Below are positions 1,565-11,481 of a stretch of DNA of 11,577 bases, in pieces; the stretch's first letter is position 1; each line of letters opens with the position of its first letter. This DNA is from Syntrophomonadaceae bacterium (GTDB lineage: Bacteria > Bacillota_D > Dethiobacteria > DTU022). A model generated the notes under the pieces. The model was given only the letters and a program-made list of their open reading frames with translations. It ran no database searches and was not told where the DNA came from. The translations under genes were made by a program, and so were the position numbers. The stretch covers positions 1 to 11,577 of the forward strand of contig PWUG01000223.1 of the NCBI GenBank assembly GCA_003562605.1, written 5' to 3'.

Positions 1565-1591
1565 TATATCTTTCTCCAAACCAGCCGATAA
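1565..1591 (+). promoter_or_regulatory. Candidate sigma-28 (SigD/FliA) promoter P1 of the flagellin gene
   Basis: GCCGATAA at 1584-1591 matches the sigma-28 -10 consensus at all eight bases. Exactly 11 bases upstream, TATATCTT (1565-1572) matches the -35 consensus TAAAGTTT at five of eight. Sigma-28 normally drives flagellin genes. Use of this promoter would give a leader of about 260 bases containing the folded element at 1611-1668 and the hairpin at 1769-1809. Confidence 0.55.
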
Positions 1592-1809: not shown

Positions 1810-1857
1810 CATGTGTGGTAGGTCGCAGCCATGACCATTTTCGGGGAGACTTGGCCT

Positions 1858-4800
1858 ATGATCATCAACCACAACATCCCGGCGATAAACACCCTCCGGC
1901 AGATGAGCAGGCAGGAAACAGCTGTCACCCAGGCGCTCTCTCGCCTGTCGTCCGGTCTGCGTATCAACCGGGCCGCAGACGACGCCGCCGACCTGGGCAT
2001 CTCCGTCCGCATGCGCGCCCAGATCCGCTCCCAGCAGCAGGCCTTCCGCAACACCCAGGACGGCATCTCCCTGATCCGCACCGCTGAAGGCGCCCTGCAG
2101 GAGGCGGCTGATATCCTGCTGCGCATGCGGGAACTGGCCGTCCAGGCATCCAACGGCGCCCTGACATCCCTGGACCGCCAGGCTATGCAGCATGAATTCC
2201 GCCAGCTCGGCGAAGAACTGGACCGCATTGCCAAAACCACCAATTTTAACACCATGAACATACTGGACGGTTCGGCCTCCATCGTGGCCAGCACCGACAG
2301 CAGCCTGCTGGAAGCCTATTTCAGCAGTGATAGGGTGCTGCTTTTGGATGAAATCGCCGGGCGCTACCAGCTCGACATAACCGCTGAAGCGGGCCAAGGG
2401 CAGGTTAAAAAGTCCCACATTTTCGGCCTGATGAACGGGACCATGGCGACAGATATCAACACCCGCCCCGCCAACGGCGAGATTACCGGCCTGACCGGGT
2501 TCAGCGCCAGGGGACTTTCAGAAGGCGATTACCGCATCCAGACCCGGGCCCAGCCCTTCGGGGGGATCGAGTATTTCAACAGCCCTGCCGATCTAGGCGT
2601 TGTAGACGTAAGGCCCTCCTCAACGCCCAACATCATGCCCTTCGGCGAGTACAACGTGCAAACGGCTGAAGAAGTGCCCTTCATGGCCATCTTCCACGAT
2701 TACGAAGGCACCGGCGATGACCTGATCAGGGGGGTGGATCCCACCGGCAGGTTCAACATCGACGTGCGCATGGATGTCCAGGCAGACCTCGGGGCCACCG
2801 ACGCGCAAACCGAGGTGGCCTGGAAAGATATCGGCGGTGCGGGCGGCGGATCGATTGTGGAGAACGGCCCCAACGTAGCCTACCAGACGGATCCAACCTA
2901 CGATACGAATATGTACACGCATTTTCGGGTCAATAACTTGGGTCCCAGGGATCTCCTGAGCTCAGATATCCAGGCGGTTACATCGTATGTTTCGGCAAGT
3001 GGCTCTGAAGTTGACATGGAGCTCACCTACAAATCCGAAGCCGGGGCAGAAGTGGATTTGGAGTTGGACTATCGCGCTTCGGCGGGTTCTGCGGTCGAAA
3101 TGGAGCTCACCTACCGGACAGCATCCGACAGCCAAATTGAGGTAGATGCGACCTATCAAGCCAAAGCGGGTGAAACGATCTCTTTCGATACGACCTATGT
3201 GCTGCCTCCAACCTATAACCTGACCATTGAAAATGCCGACAACAATGACGAAATTGGATCGGTCGATATTGGAGGACAGAATCTTGTTGAAGCAGCGAAT
3301 AGCCTCGATACCACCTTTTCCGGCGATGGAATTACCTTTACTGTCGAGGAAGATTCAGGAACACGGCGGATTGTGGTTCATAACAACTTTACTGAGGATG
3401 CTGAAGGTGCGCCGATTCGGATATCCGACGATCAAGATAATGAACTGGGATTAAGCAGTGATGATGAACTAGGTTATGAAGATTCACGGGAAGGCACGTA
3501 TCGAGATTATGAAGCCAGAACAACGATAAACGTGGAAGAACAAAACATCGAGGGAATCGCTGACTCGTTAAATAATGACCTCAACGGAAAAGGATTAGTT
3601 TTTTCCACCGAGGACACAGTCGGAAATACGCTAAGGCTCAATATAGAAAACACAGGCTCTTACGATGTCCAGATCGTAAATGATGAAACAGCCCAATCCG
3701 TAGAAAGTGTGCTGGGATTGAATAATTATTCATCGGACGCTGGATCGGGCCTGTGGGAAGAGGGAACCAGCGTCTTCCACGACCATACCTTTGAGATCGA
3801 TATCAGCGAACGTTTCCTGCAGGAAGGAGGCGATGGTTTTTTGCAGACTGTGCAGGACGCTATCAACTCACAGTCAGAGGGTGACGCTTCCATTTCAGGA
3901 GTTGCCCTCTCCGCAGAAGGAGGAACTCAACGGAATTTTTCCCTATCGAATGGTTCCATTTATCAACTGATTTTTTCAGATTTGGCAGGAGGGGATTGGA
4001 ATCTTCTAAGCATGGATGGTGTGATTGAACGGGACTCCTCACGCGTTTCGCATCGGGTACACCATGAACACAGCTTTTCTGCGTCCGTTCCCGACAGCAA
4101 TCAAAACCTTGAGGATATACGCCAGTTGATGCAAAATGCCCTAAGTACAGAGTTGGGCGCAGATGAGATTACCAATCCGGTGGTTGTTGACGATGTCTTC
4201 CAGCTTGAAAGCGGCGCTGGAAGCCTGGATCGAATCGTCATCCAAAACTCCGGCACAGCAGATACACGGTACCAGCTCAAAATCAACAGCCACAGCGGGG
4301 CCGTGGACAATGAACTGAACCTGGTTTCGACCACCGAGCGGGGCAGCAGCTATCTGGGCAGTTCTTTGGTGCATCATGCAAATACTGTTCGGATCAACAA
4401 TATTGGAGATCAAAATCTGGAAGAGATTAACACCATCCTGCAAAACAACTTGGGCACTATGTTGGATCAAGACCAAATTGCCAACCCTGCAGAGCCCACA
4501 TTTTTCATGGAAACCCACCCGGACGAAGCACACTTGAACCGGATCGAGATCCGGAATACAGGCGACTCCAACACCCGCTATGCCATCACCATTACCGACG
4601 CGGAAGGAGACATGGCCAATCAGTTAAACCTTCACGATCTGGAAACGAACCGGGATGATGAAAGGGTTTCCTATGGGGTGTATCATGAGCATACTCAGCT
4701 AATCTCCGTTGGGGATCGGGATTTGGAAGAAATCCGTACGGCTTTGCAGACTTTTCTGCAAGAAGATTTTCTCGACAATGATGAGATTGTTGACACCAGT

Positions 4801-7800
4801 GACCAGGATACTTTTCTTAGAGAGAATGTCGCTGCCGGTCGAGAACGTATCGAGATCGACAATACGGGAGACCGCAATACCAGTTATCAGATCATTCTTG
4901 GAGACCACACCGGCGATGTGGCCGAACATCTGGGTATCGCTACGACAACCAACCGCGATGACTCCCATGAAGGCACAGCAAGGGATTATGAGTATGACTG
5001 GGGTGTCGTTGCCACCAACAGTACGAACATCGAGGAATTGATGGAAGAATTGGGTAGCCACGAGCTTTTCTCAACCAGCTGGCTCGTAGAACCTGACTAT
5101 TCCGGACAATACGAAGGGCAATTCGATATTACAAATATAGGAGGGGACGATGCCGAAAATGAAAAGCGGAGAGTAACCCTTAACAGCGGCGATGGTGCTG
5201 AACAGCTGCTGGGCGGCGAAATGATTCTCAGGCTGAATGAGACAGATGATACACTTTTATGGCAGGCAAGGGATCGCATCCAGGTCATCACCGAGTATGA
5301 AGGGATTACCAACACCGGGACCTATGAATCTGGCTCAAGTACAGATTGGTGGTGGGAAGGAGTCGATGGCACTCTCAACCCGCTAGTTGACAATCCGGAT
5401 CTGGGCTTTACATCACTCAAGATTCCCGATAATGATGACCATGATACAGAATGGATTATTGGCGATGCCTGGACCCTTTTTACCATGGCCCAGGGAAATG
5501 CCGATCATGACAGGCTGGACTTTCACCTGGTCGACGAGGCATCTTCGGCCACCTATGCCAGTCAGCACGCAGGGGCCAGCACCTACGGCGGAGGCTCGTA
5601 CCGCTTCAACAACGAAGTGTTGGACGACAGTTCCTTGTTTATCCCCCAGGCGGTGAGGATGGACATCGGCGAACATGAGACCTTCGACCACCGCATCCAG
5701 TTCGGCAACACCATCACTTCCGAAAACGACGCCGCGGTCTATAAAGAGCGCTACCAGACGGGTTACAATCATTATGCCCATGCCTACTACGGAGACCTGA
5801 CCACCTACTATTTCGCCAACGAGGGGGAATGGCAGGACTACATCCACAGCGTGGAGGTCTGGCGGCAGGAAGACACCAACATCTCCATGCTCTTCACCGT
5901 GCTGGAGGATGGCAACCTGCGCGTGGAAGGGAAAGGCTACCACCGCAACGGGACCAGCGCGGACTTCGAGGATCTTACCATTGCACCACCCGGCGGAGGG
6001 CCGGTTGAAATCGGGCCTGTCTGGTTTGATGACCTGTCCATCGGCGGAGATCTCACGGCGGGGGACAAGTTCGTGATCAATGTCGCCGCCCGGGCGGGCC
6101 ATGAGGATTCGGTAGATACCCACGGGGACCTGGAGTATACCGACAACAATATTGCCATTACCGGCTCACCATTCCAGGTCATGGGCAGCTCCATGCAGTA
6201 CCGCTTTGATTCCGGGGCCGTTGACGGCGAGGAGCTGGACCTTCTCGGTTACTTTGTCGATCCCCTCCTGGGCTTTGACGACATCATCGGGGTCAGGACA
6301 GGGCAGATCATCATGGAGGTGGAGGGTGACGGGTTCGCCGACGGGAGCAGGGTCGGCGGGTCCCAGCGGGTGGTGCTGGAGGTGAACCACCACGGCACCA
6401 CCGAGCACATCGCCGCTGCCCTGCTGACAGGCCACTATTTCCAAACCATGGGCGACCAGGAGACCTACTACGATTTCCTGGAAGTCATCACTTACGAGGA
6501 AAACCAGACCCAGAACGCATCGGTGGTTTTCGAGGTGATCGGGGTGGAAAACGACCGCATCACCCTCAGGGGCCAGGCCCATATCTACGACAGGGACGGC
6601 AATTACCGCTACGAGTTCGAAGACCGGTTCAGCCTGGGCCGTTATACAGAAAACCTGCGCCTCTTCGGCAACTGCGGTGAAGAACTGGTTTTTTCAGAGT
6701 TCCAGCTGGGCGATCTGTCCCGCTTCAGGGAAGGCGACCGCTTTTCCCTGTCCCTGGCGGCCAACGCGGAACCGGACGACAGCACTCACGATGAAATTTA
6801 CATGTGGGGTGACGATTACCTGGAACAGGTTCACCCCCACAGCTGGCGCTTCAACGAAGGCGTTCTCGATTACACGGCAACAGTTCTTCGCAGTTACCAG
6901 GTAAACCGCGAGAGCGGCGAAATATTTGATTCGGAAAAAACACTGTCCTTCCACGCGTACCACGGTGGAACCTCCATCGGTGTCACGGACAGCCTTACCG
7001 AACCGCGCGACGTGCCCGACACGGTCCGGTTTAACTCACTTTACAAGCAGTCGGAAGATATGGGTACAGCCCATCGCTACTCCCGCCTGGAAGATATCAG
7101 CGCGTTTGTCACAGCGGAAGGTCGCTCCCTGCTGGAGCAGCCCGCTGTGCTTACCATTCACCAGGGCGACAAAAGCGTGCAGGTCATGCTTTACGCGGAA
7201 GACGAGGTCATGGACGTTATCGACCGCATCAACCGGGTCATATATGAAGACCTGGGTCAAAAGAATTTGGTTTCTATCGAAGACAGCATGACCTTTGCTT
7301 CATTTGTAAACAGCCCTTTCCCGGGAAGTGCCCTTGATGTGATGGAAGGGTCGATCGTTGTCCGCTCGGCCCTGCCAGGGCAAGAAGGAGAGCTGGTTTT
7401 TTCCGGCGATGAAGAACTGCTGAGGGCCCTTGGCATGACAATCATCAGGGAGTCGGAAGAAAATCTCTACAGTATTAATATGACAAATAAGGAAAGCGGC
7501 GAAGTCCTGGCCCGGGGGGTTCGCTTCACGGGTGGTGTGGCGCCGGGGGTCTTGCCGGGTATGACCCTGCACGTGGATTCCATACTCGGTATCGAGCAGG
7601 CTGAATTCGAACGCTGCGTTGAGGATTTCAATTACGTTACCGGCCTGGCCGAGGAAGTATACGTGCGCCTGGCCGACCGCCGCAAAGCCCTGCATACCGG
7701 GCCCAACCCGGGGCAGATTGCCATGCTCAACCTGGGTGATATAAGCCAGAAGGCCCTGGGGATTGCAAATGAAAACCTGCTGACCCGCGACCTGGCCAAC

Positions 7801-8079
7801 CGGGCCGTCCAGCGCATCGACAACGCTGCCGGCCAGGTGTCGAACCAGCGGGCTAACCTGGGAGCGCTGGAAAACCGTCTGGAGCACACCATGAGCAACC
7901 TTATGACAGCCAGCGAAAACTTAACCAGTGCCGAGTCCAGGATCCGGGATGCGGACCTGGCCAGGGAAATGGTTGCCTTTACGAAGAAAAAAATCCTCCT
8001 GGACACAGCCTACAACGTGCTGGGGAAAACCCGCTTGAAAAAGGAAATGATCCTGGAACTGCTCCAGCAGAACCTGTAG
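1858..8079 (+). CDS. Giant flagellin (2,073 residues), filament subunit with a very large repetitive insert
   Basis: Flagellins are secreted unfolded through the flagellar export channel and polymerise into the filament. Residues 1-140 are a normal N-terminal D0/D1 domain: MIINHNIPAINTLRQM, LSSGLRINRAADDAADLGIS, MRELAVQASNG and a FNTMNILDG end. From about residue 1960 to 2073 lies the C-terminal D1/D0 domain (RANLGALENRLEHTMSNL, ENLTSAESRIRDADLAREMV). Typical flagellins have 270-600 residues; here about 1,800 acidic, beta-rich residues separate the ends. The insert holds a 14-residue repeat (376-445), seven larger repeats (469-1121) and 200-224-residue modules (from 1202). Two cysteines are seen (C1606, C1920), uncommon for a flagellin. 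The last helix is lysine/arginine-rich (LGKTRLKKEMILELL) where most flagellins have a Q/N-rich stretch. No HExxH protease motif is present. ATG 1858 is preferred over ATG 1831 because GGGGAG (1843-1848) lies nine bases before it and the protein then begins like other flagellins. The frame is intact; the middle third is much less GC-rich than the ends. Confidence 0.93.
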   Translation: MIINHNIPAINTLRQMSRQETAVTQALSRLSSGLRINRAADDAADLGISVRMRAQIRSQQQAFRNTQDGISLIRTAEGALQEAADILLRMRELAVQASNGALTSLDRQAMQHEFRQLGEELDRIAKTTNFNTMNILDGSASIVASTDSSLLEAYFSSDRVLLLDEIAGRYQLDITAEAGQGQVKKSHIFGLMNGTMATDINTRPANGEITGLTGFSARGLSEGDYRIQTRAQPFGGIEYFNSPADLGVVDVRPSSTPNIMPFGEYNVQTAEEVPFMAIFHDYEGTGDDLIRGVDPTGRFNIDVRMDVQADLGATDAQTEVAWKDIGGAGGGSIVENGPNVAYQTDPTYDTNMYTHFRVNNLGPRDLLSSDIQAVTSYVSASGSEVDMELTYKSEAGAEVDLELDYRASAGSAVEMELTYRTASDSQIEVDATYQAKAGETISFDTTYVLPPTYNLTIENADNNDEIGSVDIGGQNLVEAANSLDTTFSGDGITFTVEEDSGTRRIVVHNNFTEDAEGAPIRISDDQDNELGLSSDDELGYEDSREGTYRDYEARTTINVEEQNIEGIADSLNNDLNGKGLVFSTEDTVGNTLRLNIENTGSYDVQIVNDETAQSVESVLGLNNYSSDAGSGLWEEGTSVFHDHTFEIDISERFLQEGGDGFLQTVQDAINSQSEGDASISGVALSAEGGTQRNFSLSNGSIYQLIFSDLAGGDWNLLSMDGVIERDSSRVSHRVHHEHSFSASVPDSNQNLEDIRQLMQNALSTELGADEITNPVVVDDVFQLESGAGSLDRIVIQNSGTADTRYQLKINSHSGAVDNELNLVSTTERGSSYLGSSLVHHANTVRINNIGDQNLEEINTILQNNLGTMLDQDQIANPAEPTFFMETHPDEAHLNRIEIRNTGDSNTRYAITITDAEGDMANQLNLHDLETNRDDERVSYGVYHEHTQLISVGDRDLEEIRTALQTFLQEDFLDNDEIVDTSDQDTFLRENVAAGRERIEIDNTGDRNTSYQIILGDHTGDVAEHLGIATTTNRDDSHEGTARDYEYDWGVVATNSTNIEELMEELGSHELFSTSWLVEPDYSGQYEGQFDITNIGGDDAENEKRRVTLNSGDGAEQLLGGEMILRLNETDDTLLWQARDRIQVITEYEGITNTGTYESGSSTDWWWEGVDGTLNPLVDNPDLGFTSLKIPDNDDHDTEWIIGDAWTLFTMAQGNADHDRLDFHLVDEASSATYASQHAGASTYGGGSYRFNNEVLDDSSLFIPQAVRMDIGEHETFDHRIQFGNTITSENDAAVYKERYQTGYNHYAHAYYGDLTTYYFANEGEWQDYIHSVEVWRQEDTNISMLFTVLEDGNLRVEGKGYHRNGTSADFEDLTIAPPGGGPVEIGPVWFDDLSIGGDLTAGDKFVINVAARAGHEDSVDTHGDLEYTDNNIAITGSPFQVMGSSMQYRFDSGAVDGEELDLLGYFVDPLLGFDDIIGVRTGQIIMEVEGDGFADGSRVGGSQRVVLEVNHHGTTEHIAAALLTGHYFQTMGDQETYYDFLEVITYEENQTQNASVVFEVIGVENDRITLRGQAHIYDRDGNYRYEFEDRFSLGRYTENLRLFGNCGEELVFSEFQLGDLSRFREGDRFSLSLAANAEPDDSTHDEIYMWGDDYLEQVHPHSWRFNEGVLDYTATVLRSYQVNRESGEIFDSEKTLSFHAYHGGTSIGVTDSLTEPRDVPDTVRFNSLYKQSEDMGTAHRYSRLEDISAFVTAEGRSLLEQPAVLTIHQGDKSVQVMLYAEDEVMDVIDRINRVIYEDLGQKNLVSIEDSMTFASFVNSPFPGSALDVMEGSIVVRSALPGQEGELVFSGDEELLRALGMTIIRESEENLYSINMTNKESGEVLARGVRFTGGVAPGVLPGMTLHVDSILGIEQAEFERCVEDFNYVTGLAEEVYVRLADRRKALHTGPNPGQIAMLNLGDISQKALGIANENLLTRDLANRAVQRIDNAAGQVSNQRANLGALENRLEHTMSNLMTASENLTSAESRIRDADLAREMVAFTKKKILLDTAYNVLGKTRLKKEMILELLQQNL
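2983..3192 (+). repeat. Five tandem 14-residue (42-bp) repeats inside the flagellin
   Basis: Units at 2983-3024, 3025-3066, 3067-3108, 3109-3150 and 3151-3192 are each exactly 42 bases. The consensus is (T/S/D)Y...(A/S)(G/D)..(V/I)(E/D)(M/L/V)(E/D)(L/A), for example TYKSEAGAEVDLEL and DYRASAGSAVEMEL, and a sixth TY begins at 3193. Alternating polar and hydrophobic residues around a small-residue turn suggest stacked beta-hairpins. The DNA copies have diverged more than the length pattern, so the period is under selection or the array is old. Confidence 0.85.
3262..5220 (+). repeat. Seven ~75-103-residue repeats in the flagellin insert
   Basis: Approximate units: 3262-3522, 3523-3789, 3790-4074, 4075-4383, 4384-4692, 4693-4995 and 4996-5220 (truncated). 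The shared plan is a beta strand; a helix with (N/D)(L/I)(E/V)E(I/A)...L; a strand pair such as RIEIRNTGDSNTRYAITI; then an acidic G-D-x-A-x-x-L-x-L end and a joining segment. Units 4-6 are the most alike (LEDIRQLMQNAL, LEEINTILQNNL, LEEIRTALQTFL). Units 2-5 end in histidine-rich joints (HDHT, HHEHS, HHAN, YHEH), while 1 and 6 end in REGTYRDYE / HEGTARDYE, which hints at block duplication. The helix-containing part resembles the flagellin IN motif, but the match is by eye. Confidence 0.8.
5461..7020 (+). repeat. Two and a half 200-224-residue modules in the flagellin insert
   Basis: A core GD-x-(W/F)-x-(L/I)...A begins at 5461 (GDAWTLFTMAQGN), 6061 (GDKFVINVAARAG) and 6733 (GDRFSLSLAANAE), i.e. 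200 and 224 residues apart. A second core, (Y/W)RF(N/D)...VLD/AVD, follows exactly 46 residues after the first core in modules 1 and 2 (5599, 6199) and 37 residues after it in module 3 (6844). Between cores lie parallel segments such as ISMLFTVLEDGNLRVEGKGY and ASVVFEVIGVENDRITLRGQ. The pattern suggests repeated beta-sandwich domains. No family name is offered. Confidence 0.65.
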
Positions 8080-8173: not shown

Positions 8174-8560
8174 TCACCAAATAACTTCCACCTGATATGC
8201 GGTAAAATGGGGATCAACTGTTATGATAGGCACGTTTTCTAGCTGGGCCTGGGCAATTAGCAAGCGATCAAACGGGTCGCGGTGAAGACCGGGCAGGTTG
8301 TGAACATGCAAGGCGTGATTAAGCAGAACCGGCAATGGGGTAATGGCATTAATGTACATTTGGTCCATGATAAACGATGTCATGTCAGATGGTAAGGAAA
8401 GCTTGCCCAGTCCCGCCTTAACTGCTATTTCCCAGCCGCTGGCTGCACTTAAGAATAGCGTGTTATCAGCATTGCTGATGACTTCCCGCGCTTGATGTGA
8501 TAACCGGGGATTATCATTTATCCACCATAAAAATGCATGGGTATCCAGAAGCACTTTCAT
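8174..8560 (-). CDS. PIN-domain toxin, VapC family ribonuclease
   Basis: A 128-residue PIN protein of standard length. Its acidic metal-binding residues are in the expected motifs: D6 in LLDTHAFLWW, E44 in SGWEIAVK, D95/D98 in HRDPFDRLLIAQA and D116 in IITVDPHF. VapC toxins are Mg2+-dependent RNases that often cut tRNA or rRNA and are neutralised by the cognate antitoxin. The start ATG overlaps the antitoxin stop by four bases (ATGA at 8557-8560), and GAGGAG sits about nine bases upstream within the antitoxin gene, so translation is coupled. It converges with the giant flagellin gene. I see no clear terminator in the 94 bases between them. Confidence 0.92.
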   Translation of the reverse strand: MKVLLDTHAFLWWINDNPRLSHQAREVISNADNTLFLSAASGWEIAVKAGLGKLSLPSDMTSFIMDQMYINAITPLPVLLNHALHVHNLPGLHRDPFDRLLIAQAQLENVPIITVDPHFTAYQVEVIW

Positions 8561-8787
8561 TTTTCAAACTCCTCTAAAATATGATCAGGTAATGCCTCAT
8601 TAAAATCGGGGGAAACAGTTATTTTATCCTTGGCGCTGCCGGGAACCCGTTTGGGCGGTTTCTCGGTATATGGAACTAGTTTGGCTACAGGACTCCCTGC
8701 TTTAGCAATGATTATTTCCTGCCCCTCCTTAACTTTTTGCAGTAACTTGGAGAGATTGGTTTTTGCTTCATGGATGTTTACAAGCAT
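8557..8787 (-). CDS. Phd/YefM-type antitoxin of the VapC toxin
   Basis: A 76-residue protein starting MLVNIHEAKTNLSKLLQKVK, the Phd/YefM DNA-binding fold, with the usual GSPVAKLVP segment after the first half. The acidic C-terminal part (SPDFNEALPDHILEEFEK) is the likely toxin-binding tail. The start at 8787 is chosen over the GTG at 8805: AGAGGTGAG (8792-8800) lies five bases before this ATG and would be inside the reading frame otherwise. Antitoxins of this family bind their own promoter, alone or with toxin, and repress the operon. Confidence 0.9.
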   Translation of the reverse strand: MLVNIHEAKTNLSKLLQKVKEGQEIIIAKAGSPVAKLVPYTEKPPKRVPGSAKDKITVSPDFNEALPDHILEEFEK

Positions 8788-8806
8788 ATTACTCACCTCT
8801 GGCACA

Positions 8807-8837
8807 ATAATAAACTAAGTCATGGACTAAGTCAAGG
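8807..8837 (-). promoter_or_regulatory. Promoter and operator-like direct repeats of the Phd-VapC operon
   Basis: On the minus strand TTGACT (8835-8830) and TATTAT (8812-8807) are spaced by 17 bases, a good vegetative promoter, with a start site near 8800 and only about 13 leader bases. A 12-bp tandem repeat, ACTAAGTCATGG/ACTAAGTCAAGG (plus strand, 8814-8825 and 8826-8837), covers the spacer and -35. This is where an autorepressing antitoxin would be expected to bind. Confidence 0.7.
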
Positions 8838-8996
8838 ATTAAGAATATAAACATCATTCCACGATGAAGAAAAAGCATAAGAAATTGCAGAAAGAATCTA
8901 CATTCCTAGTCCAACGCATTTGAAATCCTTTTACAAAACATAAGGCGCTAACACGGAGAGCTCCCACCAGATAAAAGAGCAAAAGCTACTTTTCAT
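8838..8996. other. Intergenic stretch with no recognised gene
   Basis: About 160 AT-rich bases upstream of the antitoxin promoter. Frames are short and broken on both strands and no ribosome binding site leads into one. The octamer GAGCTCCC at 8958-8965 recurs at 9164-9171 on the other side of relic B; otherwise I see nothing. Confidence 0.5.
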
Positions 8997-9020
8997 AAAA
9001 AAACCGCACGTTATTGCGGT
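8997..9020 (-). terminator. Rho-independent terminator, minus strand (for relic B)
   Basis: On the minus strand ACCGCA, loop ATAACG, TGCGGT, then seven T: a 6-bp stem plus U-tract. It is placed about 40 bases after the relic B stop and has the same stem core as the terminator at 892-915, with a different loop. Confidence 0.8.
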
Positions 9021-9059
9021 ATAAGCAGTTCAAGCTATGTTGGTTTGCTTCCAAAAGGT

Positions 9060-9149
9060 CTATTGCGCTTCTTTCAGTTTCTCGATCTCTTCCCTGGGAA
9101 GACCTGTGTAACGAATTATTTTATCGACACTTTCACCGTCTTGTTGCAT
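9060..9149 (-). pseudogene. C-terminal remnant of an Rpn-family nuclease/transposase gene (relic B)
   Basis: The minus frame reads MQQDGESVDKIIRYTGLPRE, then EIEKLKEAQ and a stop at 9060-9062. It aligns without gaps to the last 29 residues of the gene at 10457-11406 (MLKDGESLDKIIRYTGLTKE...). All upstream coding sequence is missing; the match stops at an inverted repeat (9154-9171). The following terminator is kept. With relics A and E and the stub at 10151, it shows repeated loss of copies of this family here. Confidence 0.75.
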
Positions 9150-9153
9150 AAGC

Positions 9154-9171
9154 GGGAGCTCGTGAGCTCCC
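9154..9171. repeat. Strong inverted repeat GGGAGCTC-GT-GAGCTCCC
   Basis: An 8-bp perfect stem with a two-base centre; flanking ATAA/TTAT can extend it past a two-base bulge. It sits exactly at the truncated edge of relic B and 64 bases upstream of the mntA promoter. It may be a deletion or insertion scar, an operator, or a terminator-like hairpin, though no T-run follows on either strand. Confidence 0.55.
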
Positions 9172-9234
9172 TTATCGTGTAATTGTAGTCATTGCAATGT
9201 GAAGCGTGTCATCCCTGGTATTGCCTGGTAAAGA

Positions 9235-9263
9235 TTGAAAAAATAGATTTGCTATGCTATGAT
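9235..9263 (+). promoter_or_regulatory. Vegetative promoter of the mntA-hepT operon
   Basis: TTGAAA (9235-9240) and TATGAT (9258-9263) are separated by exactly 17 bases. The predicted start is near 9270, about 20 bases before the GGAGGAG ribosome binding site. The -10 overlaps the upstream ATG at 9259, which therefore cannot be the translation start. Confidence 0.65.
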
Positions 9264-9306
9264 CATGGTACATCTTTCCCAATGTAGCATGGAGGAGTGC
9301 TTTAAA

Positions 9307-9711
9307 TTGAACTATGCTTTGATAAAGGAAGCCATCAGGAAATACTTTTTCGACAAGCATGAAGTCGTTGCCGTTTACCTTTTCGGGTCTATAGCCGAAG
9401 GTAAAGCCCGCCCGGGAAGCGATATTGATATTGCCGTACTCTTCGACGATAATATCTCCATGGAAGAAAGATTTGACAGAAGGCTAACCTTTATCACTCA
9501 TCTGGAAGACCTGCTTAAATCGGAAGTAGACGTCACCGATCTATTGGCGTCAAACCTTGCTTTCCAGCACCGGGTTCTAAGAAAAGGAAAACTTCTTTTT
9601 GAGCGGGACAAGAAAAAACGGATCTATTATGAGACAAATTTAAGGCGGGAATATTTCGACTTCAAGCCCTACCTGGAGCGATATGAAAAAGCAGCCCTTA
9701 AAAGGCTATAA
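9307..9711 (+). CDS. mntA: MntA-type nucleotidyltransferase antitoxin
   Basis: A minimal nucleotidyltransferase with the signature GS-x10-DxD: YLFGSIAEGKARPGSDIDIA, giving G27-S28 and D39/D41, with a third carboxylate at D75 in SEVDVTDL. In MntA-HepT systems this enzyme uses ATP to add AMP units to a tyrosine of the HEPN toxin and silences it. I place the start at TTG 9307 (134 residues): GGAGGAG (9291-9297) lies nine bases upstream, and the in-frame ATG at 9259 falls inside the promoter -10. The C-terminal tail RIYYETNLRREYFDFKPYLE is typical of Firmicutes members. It is followed after 14 bases by the HEPN gene. Confidence 0.88.
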   Translation: MNYALIKEAIRKYFFDKHEVVAVYLFGSIAEGKARPGSDIDIAVLFDDNISMEERFDRRLTFITHLEDLLKSEVDVTDLLASNLAFQHRVLRKGKLLFERDKKKRIYYETNLRREYFDFKPYLERYEKAALKRL

Positions 9712-9725
9712 AGGGGTATTTTATA

Positions 9726-10139
9726 GTGGATACTGACCTGCTTAAGTCAAAACTGAAAAGTTTAGCGGAATACATCCAAGACCTGGAAGAGGTAAAGGAA
9801 GTCTCGCTAGAGGAAATAAAAACTGATAAAAAGCTGCGGAGATATATAGAAAGGACACTACAGCTTGCCATTGAATGCTGCCTGGATACAGGCAGTCATG
9901 TTATTTCCGACCTGGGGCTAAGAGAGCCTGCCAATAACAGGGATGTTTTTATTGTTCTGGTCGAACACGGATACGTTGAGAAGGCACGGAAGGAAACTTT
10001 TGAAAAGATGGCCGGCTTTAGAAATATTATCATCCATGAATACGCCAGGATTGATCCAGTCATTATCCACTCAGTCCTGCAAAAAGGTATTGCAGATCTG
10101 AGATATTTCGCCTCTGAAATGAAACAATTTATCCCATAG
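9726..10139 (+). CDS. hepT: HepT-type HEPN toxin (DUF86)
   Basis: A 137-residue, all-helical HEPN protein starting with GTG; AAGGGG (9711-9716) precedes it by nine bases and overlaps the mntA stop. The active-site motif R-x4-H-x-Y is complete: R99, H104 and Y106 in RNIIIHEY. In characterised pairs R and H are needed for RNase activity, and the Y is the residue AMPylated by MntA. The protein ends IADLRYFASEMKQFIP, as is usual for the family. It is co-transcribed with mntA. All key residues of both proteins are present, so the pair is probably functional. Confidence 0.9.
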   Translation: MDTDLLKSKLKSLAEYIQDLEEVKEVSLEEIKTDKKLRRYIERTLQLAIECCLDTGSHVISDLGLREPANNRDVFIVLVEHGYVEKARKETFEKMAGFRNIIIHEYARIDPVIIHSVLQKGIADLRYFASEMKQFIP

Positions 10140-10456: not shown

Positions 10457-11406
10457 TTATTGTTCTTTTTTCAGTTTCTCCACCTCTTCCTTGGTCAGCC
10501 CTGTATAACGAATAATTTTGTCGAGACTTTCACCGTCTTTTAGCATATTCTTAGCAACTATTTCCATACCTTCTTTCTTGCCTTTTTCCATGCCTTCTTT
10601 CTTGCCTTTTTCCATGCCTTCCTTAATCAGCCGCTCTGCAATGGTCATCAATAGCTCACTCCCTTCCAGAGATTTTGCCTGCAACTCACGTTTTACTTCC
10701 TCAAAATCAATATCGCCTCTGGCGCTCAACAAGTAGCGGGTAAGGGCCTCCATGAACCGGAAGGCCTTCTCAAACCCTACTTTTCTTTGCAGGATCAGTA
10801 AGGATTTAATATACACCTGGACAAAATACGCCGGGTCTTTAAGAGAAACGGCACGAATCATATCCAAGTAGATGCGAAGTATCACGCCACCTTTTATATC
10901 CTGCCCGCTGTCCGGCGAAAAGTCATAGACCACATATTCATAGTCCGGGATATACCTTCTTATCTTATCGGGCATAAACTCCAGTCCGGCAAACAGATTG
11001 GAAAAAGTAGATTCTCCTGCCCACTTATGCTCTCCCTGGTAAATGAGCAAAGGTATGATCACAGAGAGGTCACCCGTTTTGTTTTCTTTTGTCTTCTGTT
11101 CCCAGATCTTGACCATATACTTCAGCAGCTGCAAAGCCAGCTTGGGCTCCTGGTAGCTTTTGTGTTCGAATAGAAAGTAGAGATAGCCGTCCTTGCCGTC
11201 AATGCGGGTCTTGTAGAGCAGGTCTGAATAGGCTTCTTTCAGCTCCTGGTCTACGAAGCTGTCTTTTTCCAGCGACAGGTGCTTCGTGTCTATAGCCTGC
11301 AGGGCTTCTGCCGGCAGGTAGTTTTGGTTAAAAAGTCCCCTGCGACATCCGGGTCGCCCATGGTCTCCTTGAAAAATTTATCGTGTGGGTTTTGTATAAA
11401 GCTCAT
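10457..11406 (-). pseudogene. Rpn-family recombination-promoting nuclease/putative transposase, one frameshift
   Basis: The protein starts MSFIQNPHDKFFKETMGDPD (ATG 11406 with GGAAAGG just upstream). Near 11321-11330 the frame breaks, and the expected NYLPAEALQAIDTK continues in another frame with no stop down to 10457. The gap (950 bases) fits a single base lost in the AAAA run at 11321-11326; restored, the protein has about 316 residues. The PD-(D/E)XK core is visible: D62 in SDLLYKTRIDG and E81-x-K83 in FLFEHKS. Rpn proteins are DNA endonucleases that promote RecA-independent recombination in E. coli. A tail of MEKGKKEG repeats and a conserved end (SLDKIIRYTGLTKEEVEKLK) follow. Without correction two fragments would be made: about 63 residues (from 11481 or 11406) and 225 residues (from a TTG at 11134). 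Confidence 0.82.
10564..10624 (-). repeat. 24-bp tandem repeat in the Rpn tail (about 2.5 copies)
   Basis: Units at 10564-10587 and 10588-10611 differ at one base and a partial third follows. Each encodes MEKGKKEG. Such repeats change copy number by slippage and vary the length of the charged linker between the nuclease core and the conserved C-terminal tail. Relic A lacks this segment. Confidence 0.85.
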
Positions 11407-11451
11407 ATCCATCCTTTCCGGCGCACAGGTCACACCTGGCTTCCTGCCTTT

Positions 11452-11481
11452 ATTATAGCACAGGAGCGCTTTGTTCTTCAA
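11452..11481 (-). promoter_or_regulatory. Promoter of the Rpn-family gene
   Basis: On the minus strand TTGAAG (11481-11476), 18 bases, then a perfect TATAAT (11457-11452). The predicted start is near 11445, about 40 bases before the ATG at 11406. This also argues against the ATG at 11481 as the start codon. Confidence 0.6.

Follow-up and report, generated by a model that had tools for sequence, protein, structure and literature searches.

A 2,073-residue giant flagellin with a tandem-domain insert and a mosaic appearance on a Syntrophomonadaceae contig

What kind of protein begins and ends as a flagellin and yet runs to about four times the textbook flagellin size? The question is raised by contig PWUG01000223.1 of a Syntrophomonadaceae bacterium (assembly GCA_003562605.1; the whole stretch analyzed, 11,577 bases, is called the window here), in which positions 1858..8079 of the plus strand encode a protein of 2,073 amino acids with a calculated mass of 229 kDa. 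An earlier sequence-only reading had described an unbroken 6.2-kb flagellin frame, and the frame is indeed open from 1831 to 8079, with an ATG at 1858 (protein start MIINHN) and a Shine-Dalgarno-like GGGGAG at 1843..1848, 9 bases 5' of the ATG. Giant flagellins, defined by a length above 1,000 residues with D0/D1 domains at both ends, are known already, and proteins of more than 2,000 residues occur among those compared here; what is added here is the anatomy of the insert as it can be read from the sequence, in which part of the extra length comes from a row of repeated domains. We consider this protein likely to be a secreted, filament-forming structural flagellin of the FliC type, one that would build a thick filament with a reach set by its tandem domains.

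The flagellin assignment is carried by the two ends. Flagellin_N (PF00669) matches residues 3-139 (E 1.8e-42, 145.1 bits against a cut-off of 26.6) and Flagellin_C (PF00700) residues 1985-2069 (E 1.5e-19, 70.5 bits against a cut-off of 23), and in a scan of the whole protein these were the only Pfam matches over cut-off, as the earlier claim of canonical flagellin domains at the two ends alone had it. The N-terminal half of D0/D1 thus spans residues 1-145 (1858..2292), which also match flagellins in the PDB, and the C-terminal half of D1/D0 residues 1964-2073 plus the stop codon (7747..8079), both on the plus strand. Among NCBIfam models the flagellin models score highest, at 212.3 bits, and none of the best 25 of 28 matching models reached its full-length cut-off. 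FlgL models score at most 88.9 bits, which rules out FlgL or another hook-associated protein.

Between these ends lies an insert (residues 146-1963) of ~200.8 kDa that is as acidic as had been claimed, with a pI of 4.2 and a net charge of -220, and that is far from featureless, since it holds countable repeats and a part matching a solved flagellar filament. All its segments are given on the plus strand. The N-flank outer region, delimited by alignment (residues 146-375, 2293..2982), has an unreliable structure model and is followed by an array of predicted strands (residues 376-461, 2983..3240) in which a five-residue motif, for example MELTY, starts at 387, 401, 415, 429 and 443, a period of 14 residues. 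Six tandem domains of about 100 residues come next, at residues 462-539 (3241..3474), 548-630 (3499..3747), 639-728 (3772..4041), 734-831 (4057..4350), 838-935 (4369..4662) and 941-1036 (4678..4965), with a start-to-start spacing of 86-104 residues; domains 4-6 share 37-46% identity with one another, and domains 1-3 share 13-28% with any other. The Flagellin_IN family (PF07196) gave no Pfam match at E up to 10 in domain 4, domain 6 or the whole array. Residues 1181-1698 appear to hold one beta module in about three copies, at residues ~1181-1260 (5398..5637), ~1387-1488 (6016..6321) and ~1609-1698 (6682..6951): in profile-profile comparison copies 1 and 2 match copy 3 with probabilities of 95.3 and 95.0, and copy 2 matches copy 1 with only 15.0. 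Overlapping the last of these, residues 1515-1938 (6400..7671) match by predicted fold the outer domains of the Geovibrio thiophilus filament (PDB 9au6), to which residues 1-207 and 1740-2069 are also matched by sequence. The structure models are partial, with mean pLDDT values of 56 and 71 and with residues 137-372 and most of 1030-1317 unreliable. The description of the insert as beta-rich stands where they are confident, which in one model is ~376-1050 and in the second some stretches of 1318-1859.

Is this architecture peculiar to one contig? With residues 150-1980 as query, five other proteins of 2,017-2,319 residues were found, on separate contigs, the longest for each protein running from 8 to 249 kb. 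P0121, P0122 and P0038 are 54, 53 and 38% identical to the query over 99% of its length, P0123 is 45% identical over 70% and P0124 29% over 43%, with E-values printed as 0 for four of the relatives and 1.9e-73 for the fifth; a profile search recovered additional members of what is a small family. Because the insert has counterparts in proteins from other contigs, its architecture is no artefact of the window's contig, and because they share the whole domain order, a crude misassembly joining flagellin ends around foreign sequence, which had been raised as a way to refute the protein, is rejected. The taxonomic labels of the relatives disagree, reading Thermotogota, Thermotogaceae, Bacillota, Syntrophomonadaceae, Acidobacteriota and Solirubrobacterales.

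Residues 1-150, searched against candidates limited to proteins of ~1,140-3,628 residues, gave 269 matches, of which the best 120 were listed. Ten of the 179 giant flagellins compared, the window protein counted in, exceed 2,000 residues, and its size, though unusual, is therefore not unique. Profiles built from family members, which match those members by construction, hit 61 of the 179 proteins for residues 1736-1963, 26 for 146-375, 19 for 1037-1735 and 20 for the tandem domain, from which it follows that the C-terminal flank is common to many giant flagellins and the central block is largely family-specific. Among the matches listed for 103 genomes of the phylum of G001, a metagenome-assembled genome labeled Thermotogaceae, the array was matched in G001 only; there Flagellin_N matches two frames, the giant flagellin and one FlgL; in genome G006 a 421-residue frame matches only residues ~1730-2050. 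Matches occurred in 186 plasmid records, none covering 80% of a query consisting of the first 1,000 of the 2,073 residues. The comparison also brought up several other proteins: P0140, a flagellin of 1,265 residues whose ends match Flagellin_N and Flagellin_C and whose insert matches PD40 and DPPIV_N (beta-propeller-type); the giant flagellins P0007 (1,691 residues) and P0008 (1,385 residues), whose longest contigs are both 229,537 bases and possibly the same; and flagellin-like genes in 18 viral-collection contigs (L022-L039), some over 100 kb, which may be host DNA or phage-carried.

Within the family, the number of tandem domains varies and length varies with it. The window protein has six, P0123 eight and P0016, P0021 and P0039 three each; relatives with the same order have 2 to 8 detected, and the G001 protein (locus L001, contig C135), whose frame is cut off by the contig end, has 10. 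A 773-residue C-terminal piece lies on contig C334 of that genome, and should the two belong to a single gene, its product would be longer than 2,400 residues. In a fit to 13 proteins of the family, that of the window among them, length rises with the number of tandem domains, with a slope of 122 residues per domain and r of 0.976, on points that are not independent, the sequences being related; the fit omits the partial L001 and includes P0127, a possibly partial protein without Flagellin_C. Seven of the 20 proteins matched by the tandem-domain profile stand outside it, namely P0026 (partial), P0100, P0124 and P0128 (distant and probably undercounted) and P0012, P0015 and P0029, which have one or two tandem domains and do not belong to the family. 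A route to four times the textbook flagellin length is thereby shown, by tandem copies of one domain, and the natural series of copy numbers (3, 4, 6, 8 and more) makes the purpose of giant flagellins testable against arm length.

In the filament that we think likely, the D0/D1 halves would polymerize into the core, as those of other flagellins do, with the Geovibrio-like region packed beside it. The tandem domains would form long, strongly acidic arms whose number of domains sets their reach, and in thickness the filament would far exceed that of Salmonella (24 nm). The outer block would evolve as repeats are gained and lost, and probably also through exchange between flagellin genes. Export, polymerization, thickness and any benefit to the cell are all inferred. 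A bolder version, which we hold to be doubtful, is that filament diameter is set by counting FliD-D2-like domains, every additional one making the arm longer, the arms of adjacent subunits packing into an ordered acidic outer tube about the core and whole arms being swapped between flagellin genes by recombination; if it were true, lineages would tune filament thickness as with a ruler.

The ends themselves call for a reservation. The D0/D1 ends had been called intact, and they are full length yet among the most divergent: counting as conserved those positions that 90% or more of the aligned giant flagellins have in common (179 N-terminal, 177 C-terminal), changes are seen at 6 of 52 such positions in the N-terminal half and at 6 of 27 in the C-terminal half, leaving 67 of 79 kept, where the median is one change at each end. 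Only 9 of the 179 proteins at the N-terminus and 4 of the 177 at the C-terminus, the window protein counted in, are as deviant or more so, and the changes take in Q, A and N of AQAN, the motif near the C-terminal end, which here reads GKTR. It is mainly this deviation of the core that keeps us from holding the filament-forming reading as more than likely. In a D0/D1 tree of 48 rows the window protein sits on a long branch and is left unplaced, and the insert family is not cleanly grouped (4 changes, at least 2 of them forced).

These changes, the long branch and the setting, in which toxin-antitoxin and Fic genes but no other flagellar gene neighbor the frame, would suit a minor, specialized or decaying flagellin, sparse, condition-specific or losing its polymerization core, in a host whose filament is built by an ordinary flagellin. 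We regard this as unlikely. The frame has stayed open over 6.2 kb; by eye, the DNA around GKTR resembles plain substitution, with no apparent frameshift and with the hydrophobic positions of the C-terminal helix seemingly kept; and the relatives P0123 and P0127 are deviant as well, so that deviant ends may be characteristic of one part of the family. A flagellar-type promoter-like site upstream also speaks against a minor, specialized or decaying flagellin. This site, TATA-N15-GCCGATAA at 1565..1591 on the plus strand, ~270 bases before the ATG, is one mismatch from the sigma-28 consensus, TAAA-N15-GCCGATAA, and when the 300 bases before the gene were shuffled base by base 200 times, its score was never equaled. 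The whole window holds 3 sites with at most two mismatches against 0.89 expected, and since one of these, also with a single mismatch, falls within the gene but on the opposite strand, the upstream site is only a hint. In L001 such sites occur at chance (6 found, 5.5 expected): before the gene, the coding strand has one with three mismatches, and a further one, with two mismatches, falls a little way into the gene. Just upstream of the site, at 1421-1544, the short direct repeats GACGATGGAACCGTCCCCGTGTCTTT and CCCGTGTCTTTTG are clustered, presumably akin to a dispersed repetitive element of anaerobes.

An insert that is primarily functional and not structural, serving as an adhesin, ligand-binding or enzymatic layer on the filament, would fit the large acidic surface, and flagellins with an enzyme domain do exist, the flagellinolysins (PMC7643111). 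We find it improbable here: the few weak Pfam matches that residues 140-1735 give when E is allowed to reach 10 include no enzyme or adhesin family, residues 145-1731 have no sequence match in the PDB, HExxH and RGD motifs are absent from the protein, and the strongest structural matches of the predicted insert are flagellar proteins; a new binding fold would be compatible with all of this. The flagellinolysin model itself (NF033876) matches weakly, with its best stretch at the C-terminal end, and its 48.8 bits against a cut-off of 205, together with the lack of HExxH, rule out a metalloprotease flagellin. A role in adhesion, sheath formation or cell contact, which the sequence-only reading had proposed, finds neither support nor contradiction here.

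What, then, of the history of the insert? Residues 256-1470 share 65% identity with P0121, against 40% for the remaining residues, a contrast equaled in none of 40 block shuffles; the pair P0121-P0123 has no such pattern and instead a dip at 421-950. Trees of residues 1-375, 1201-1735 and 1736-2070 join P0123 to P0121 and P0122 and reject the window protein (P0001) in its place (p-AU 1.5e-4, 1.5e-4 and 7e-6), whereas the tree of tandem domains 1-3 shows the reverse grouping, P0001 with P0121 and P0122, at p-AU 0.017 (0.058 for residues 376-728); trees of 941-1036 and 1037-1200 are undecided between the groupings (p 0.18 and 0.28). Part of this conflict could come from a P0123 array that changes faster or turns over its repeats. 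Third-position GC falls to 0.49 in residues 376-1200 (window 2983-5457) against 0.68-0.76 in the other blocks, with an amino-acid-matched z of -10.8 for block limits picked after viewing the profile, and the shift is absent from L001 (0.55 and 0.58). Since the limits of the GC block (~376, ~1200) differ from the identity breakpoints (~256, ~1470), we read these signals as evidence for exchange combined with turnover in the outer block, and the protein looks mosaic. Natural exchange of flagellin variable regions is known. Imports into E. coli are mentioned in PMC7018530. The same three signals, in identity, tree conflict and GC, could be cited for a metagenome chimera in which an assembler joined a central block and ends from two organisms, but this is very improbable, as it requires two in-frame joins, the identity and codon breaks do not coincide, relatives from separate contigs have their domains in this order too, and natural exchange is a known process.

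Elsewhere in the window, a Fic protein is encoded upstream at 22-756 (a search for it in the genomes of the G001 phylum gave 43% identity in G001, which is not decisive), and two toxin-antitoxin modules lie downstream within 8174-10139, Phd/YefM antitoxin with PIN toxin on the minus strand and MntA-HepT on the plus strand. An Rpn/YhgA-like nuclease follows on the minus strand at 10457-11481 as two separate frames, the longer matching the Pfam profile from position 87 and a 63-residue frame (11290-11481) matching profile positions 1-24 just below cut-off, so that the gene seems to be disrupted. Positions 10561-10621 hold a tandem repeat of 12/24 bases. Scans of the window for tRNA genes and Rfam families gave no match.

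How does the protein compare with known systems? The giant flagellin of a named strain, Desulfosporosinus youngiae (P0049), is near-equal in length at 1,965 residues and differs in that it aligns with 7% of the window protein and is matched by none of the four insert and repeat profiles. The filament of Geovibrio thiophilus, reportedly described by Fields et al. in 2024 in work on flagellar outer domains, offers a likeness in its combination of D0/D1 with outer domains. The predicted fold of one tandem domain may resemble D2-D3 of FliD (HAP2; PDB 5h5v, 5h5w, 5fhy), with the difference that FliD caps the filament and is no part of it, and that the array here has six copies and lacks a sequence match in the PDB. 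The portions of open-licence papers available to us contained no description of 2,000-residue flagellins or of such a repeat array, although proteins of ~2,000 residues may already be among the 92 UniProt proteins over 1,000 residues counted in the giant-flagellin paper of Thomson et al. (2018; PMC6248924). That paper's giants from Bermanella marisrubri and Oleibacter marinus have 1,020 and 1,190 residues and filaments of at least 30 nm, so the earlier estimate that the window protein is about twice as long as reported giants of just over 1,000 residues fits these two; nine other proteins of the comparison exceed 2,000 residues. Compared by architecture, the marine gammaproteobacterial flagellins are alike in having D0/D1 ends, an oversized insert and a size reached through internal domain duplication, and unlike in that they have two DE regions, where the window protein has six tandem domains.
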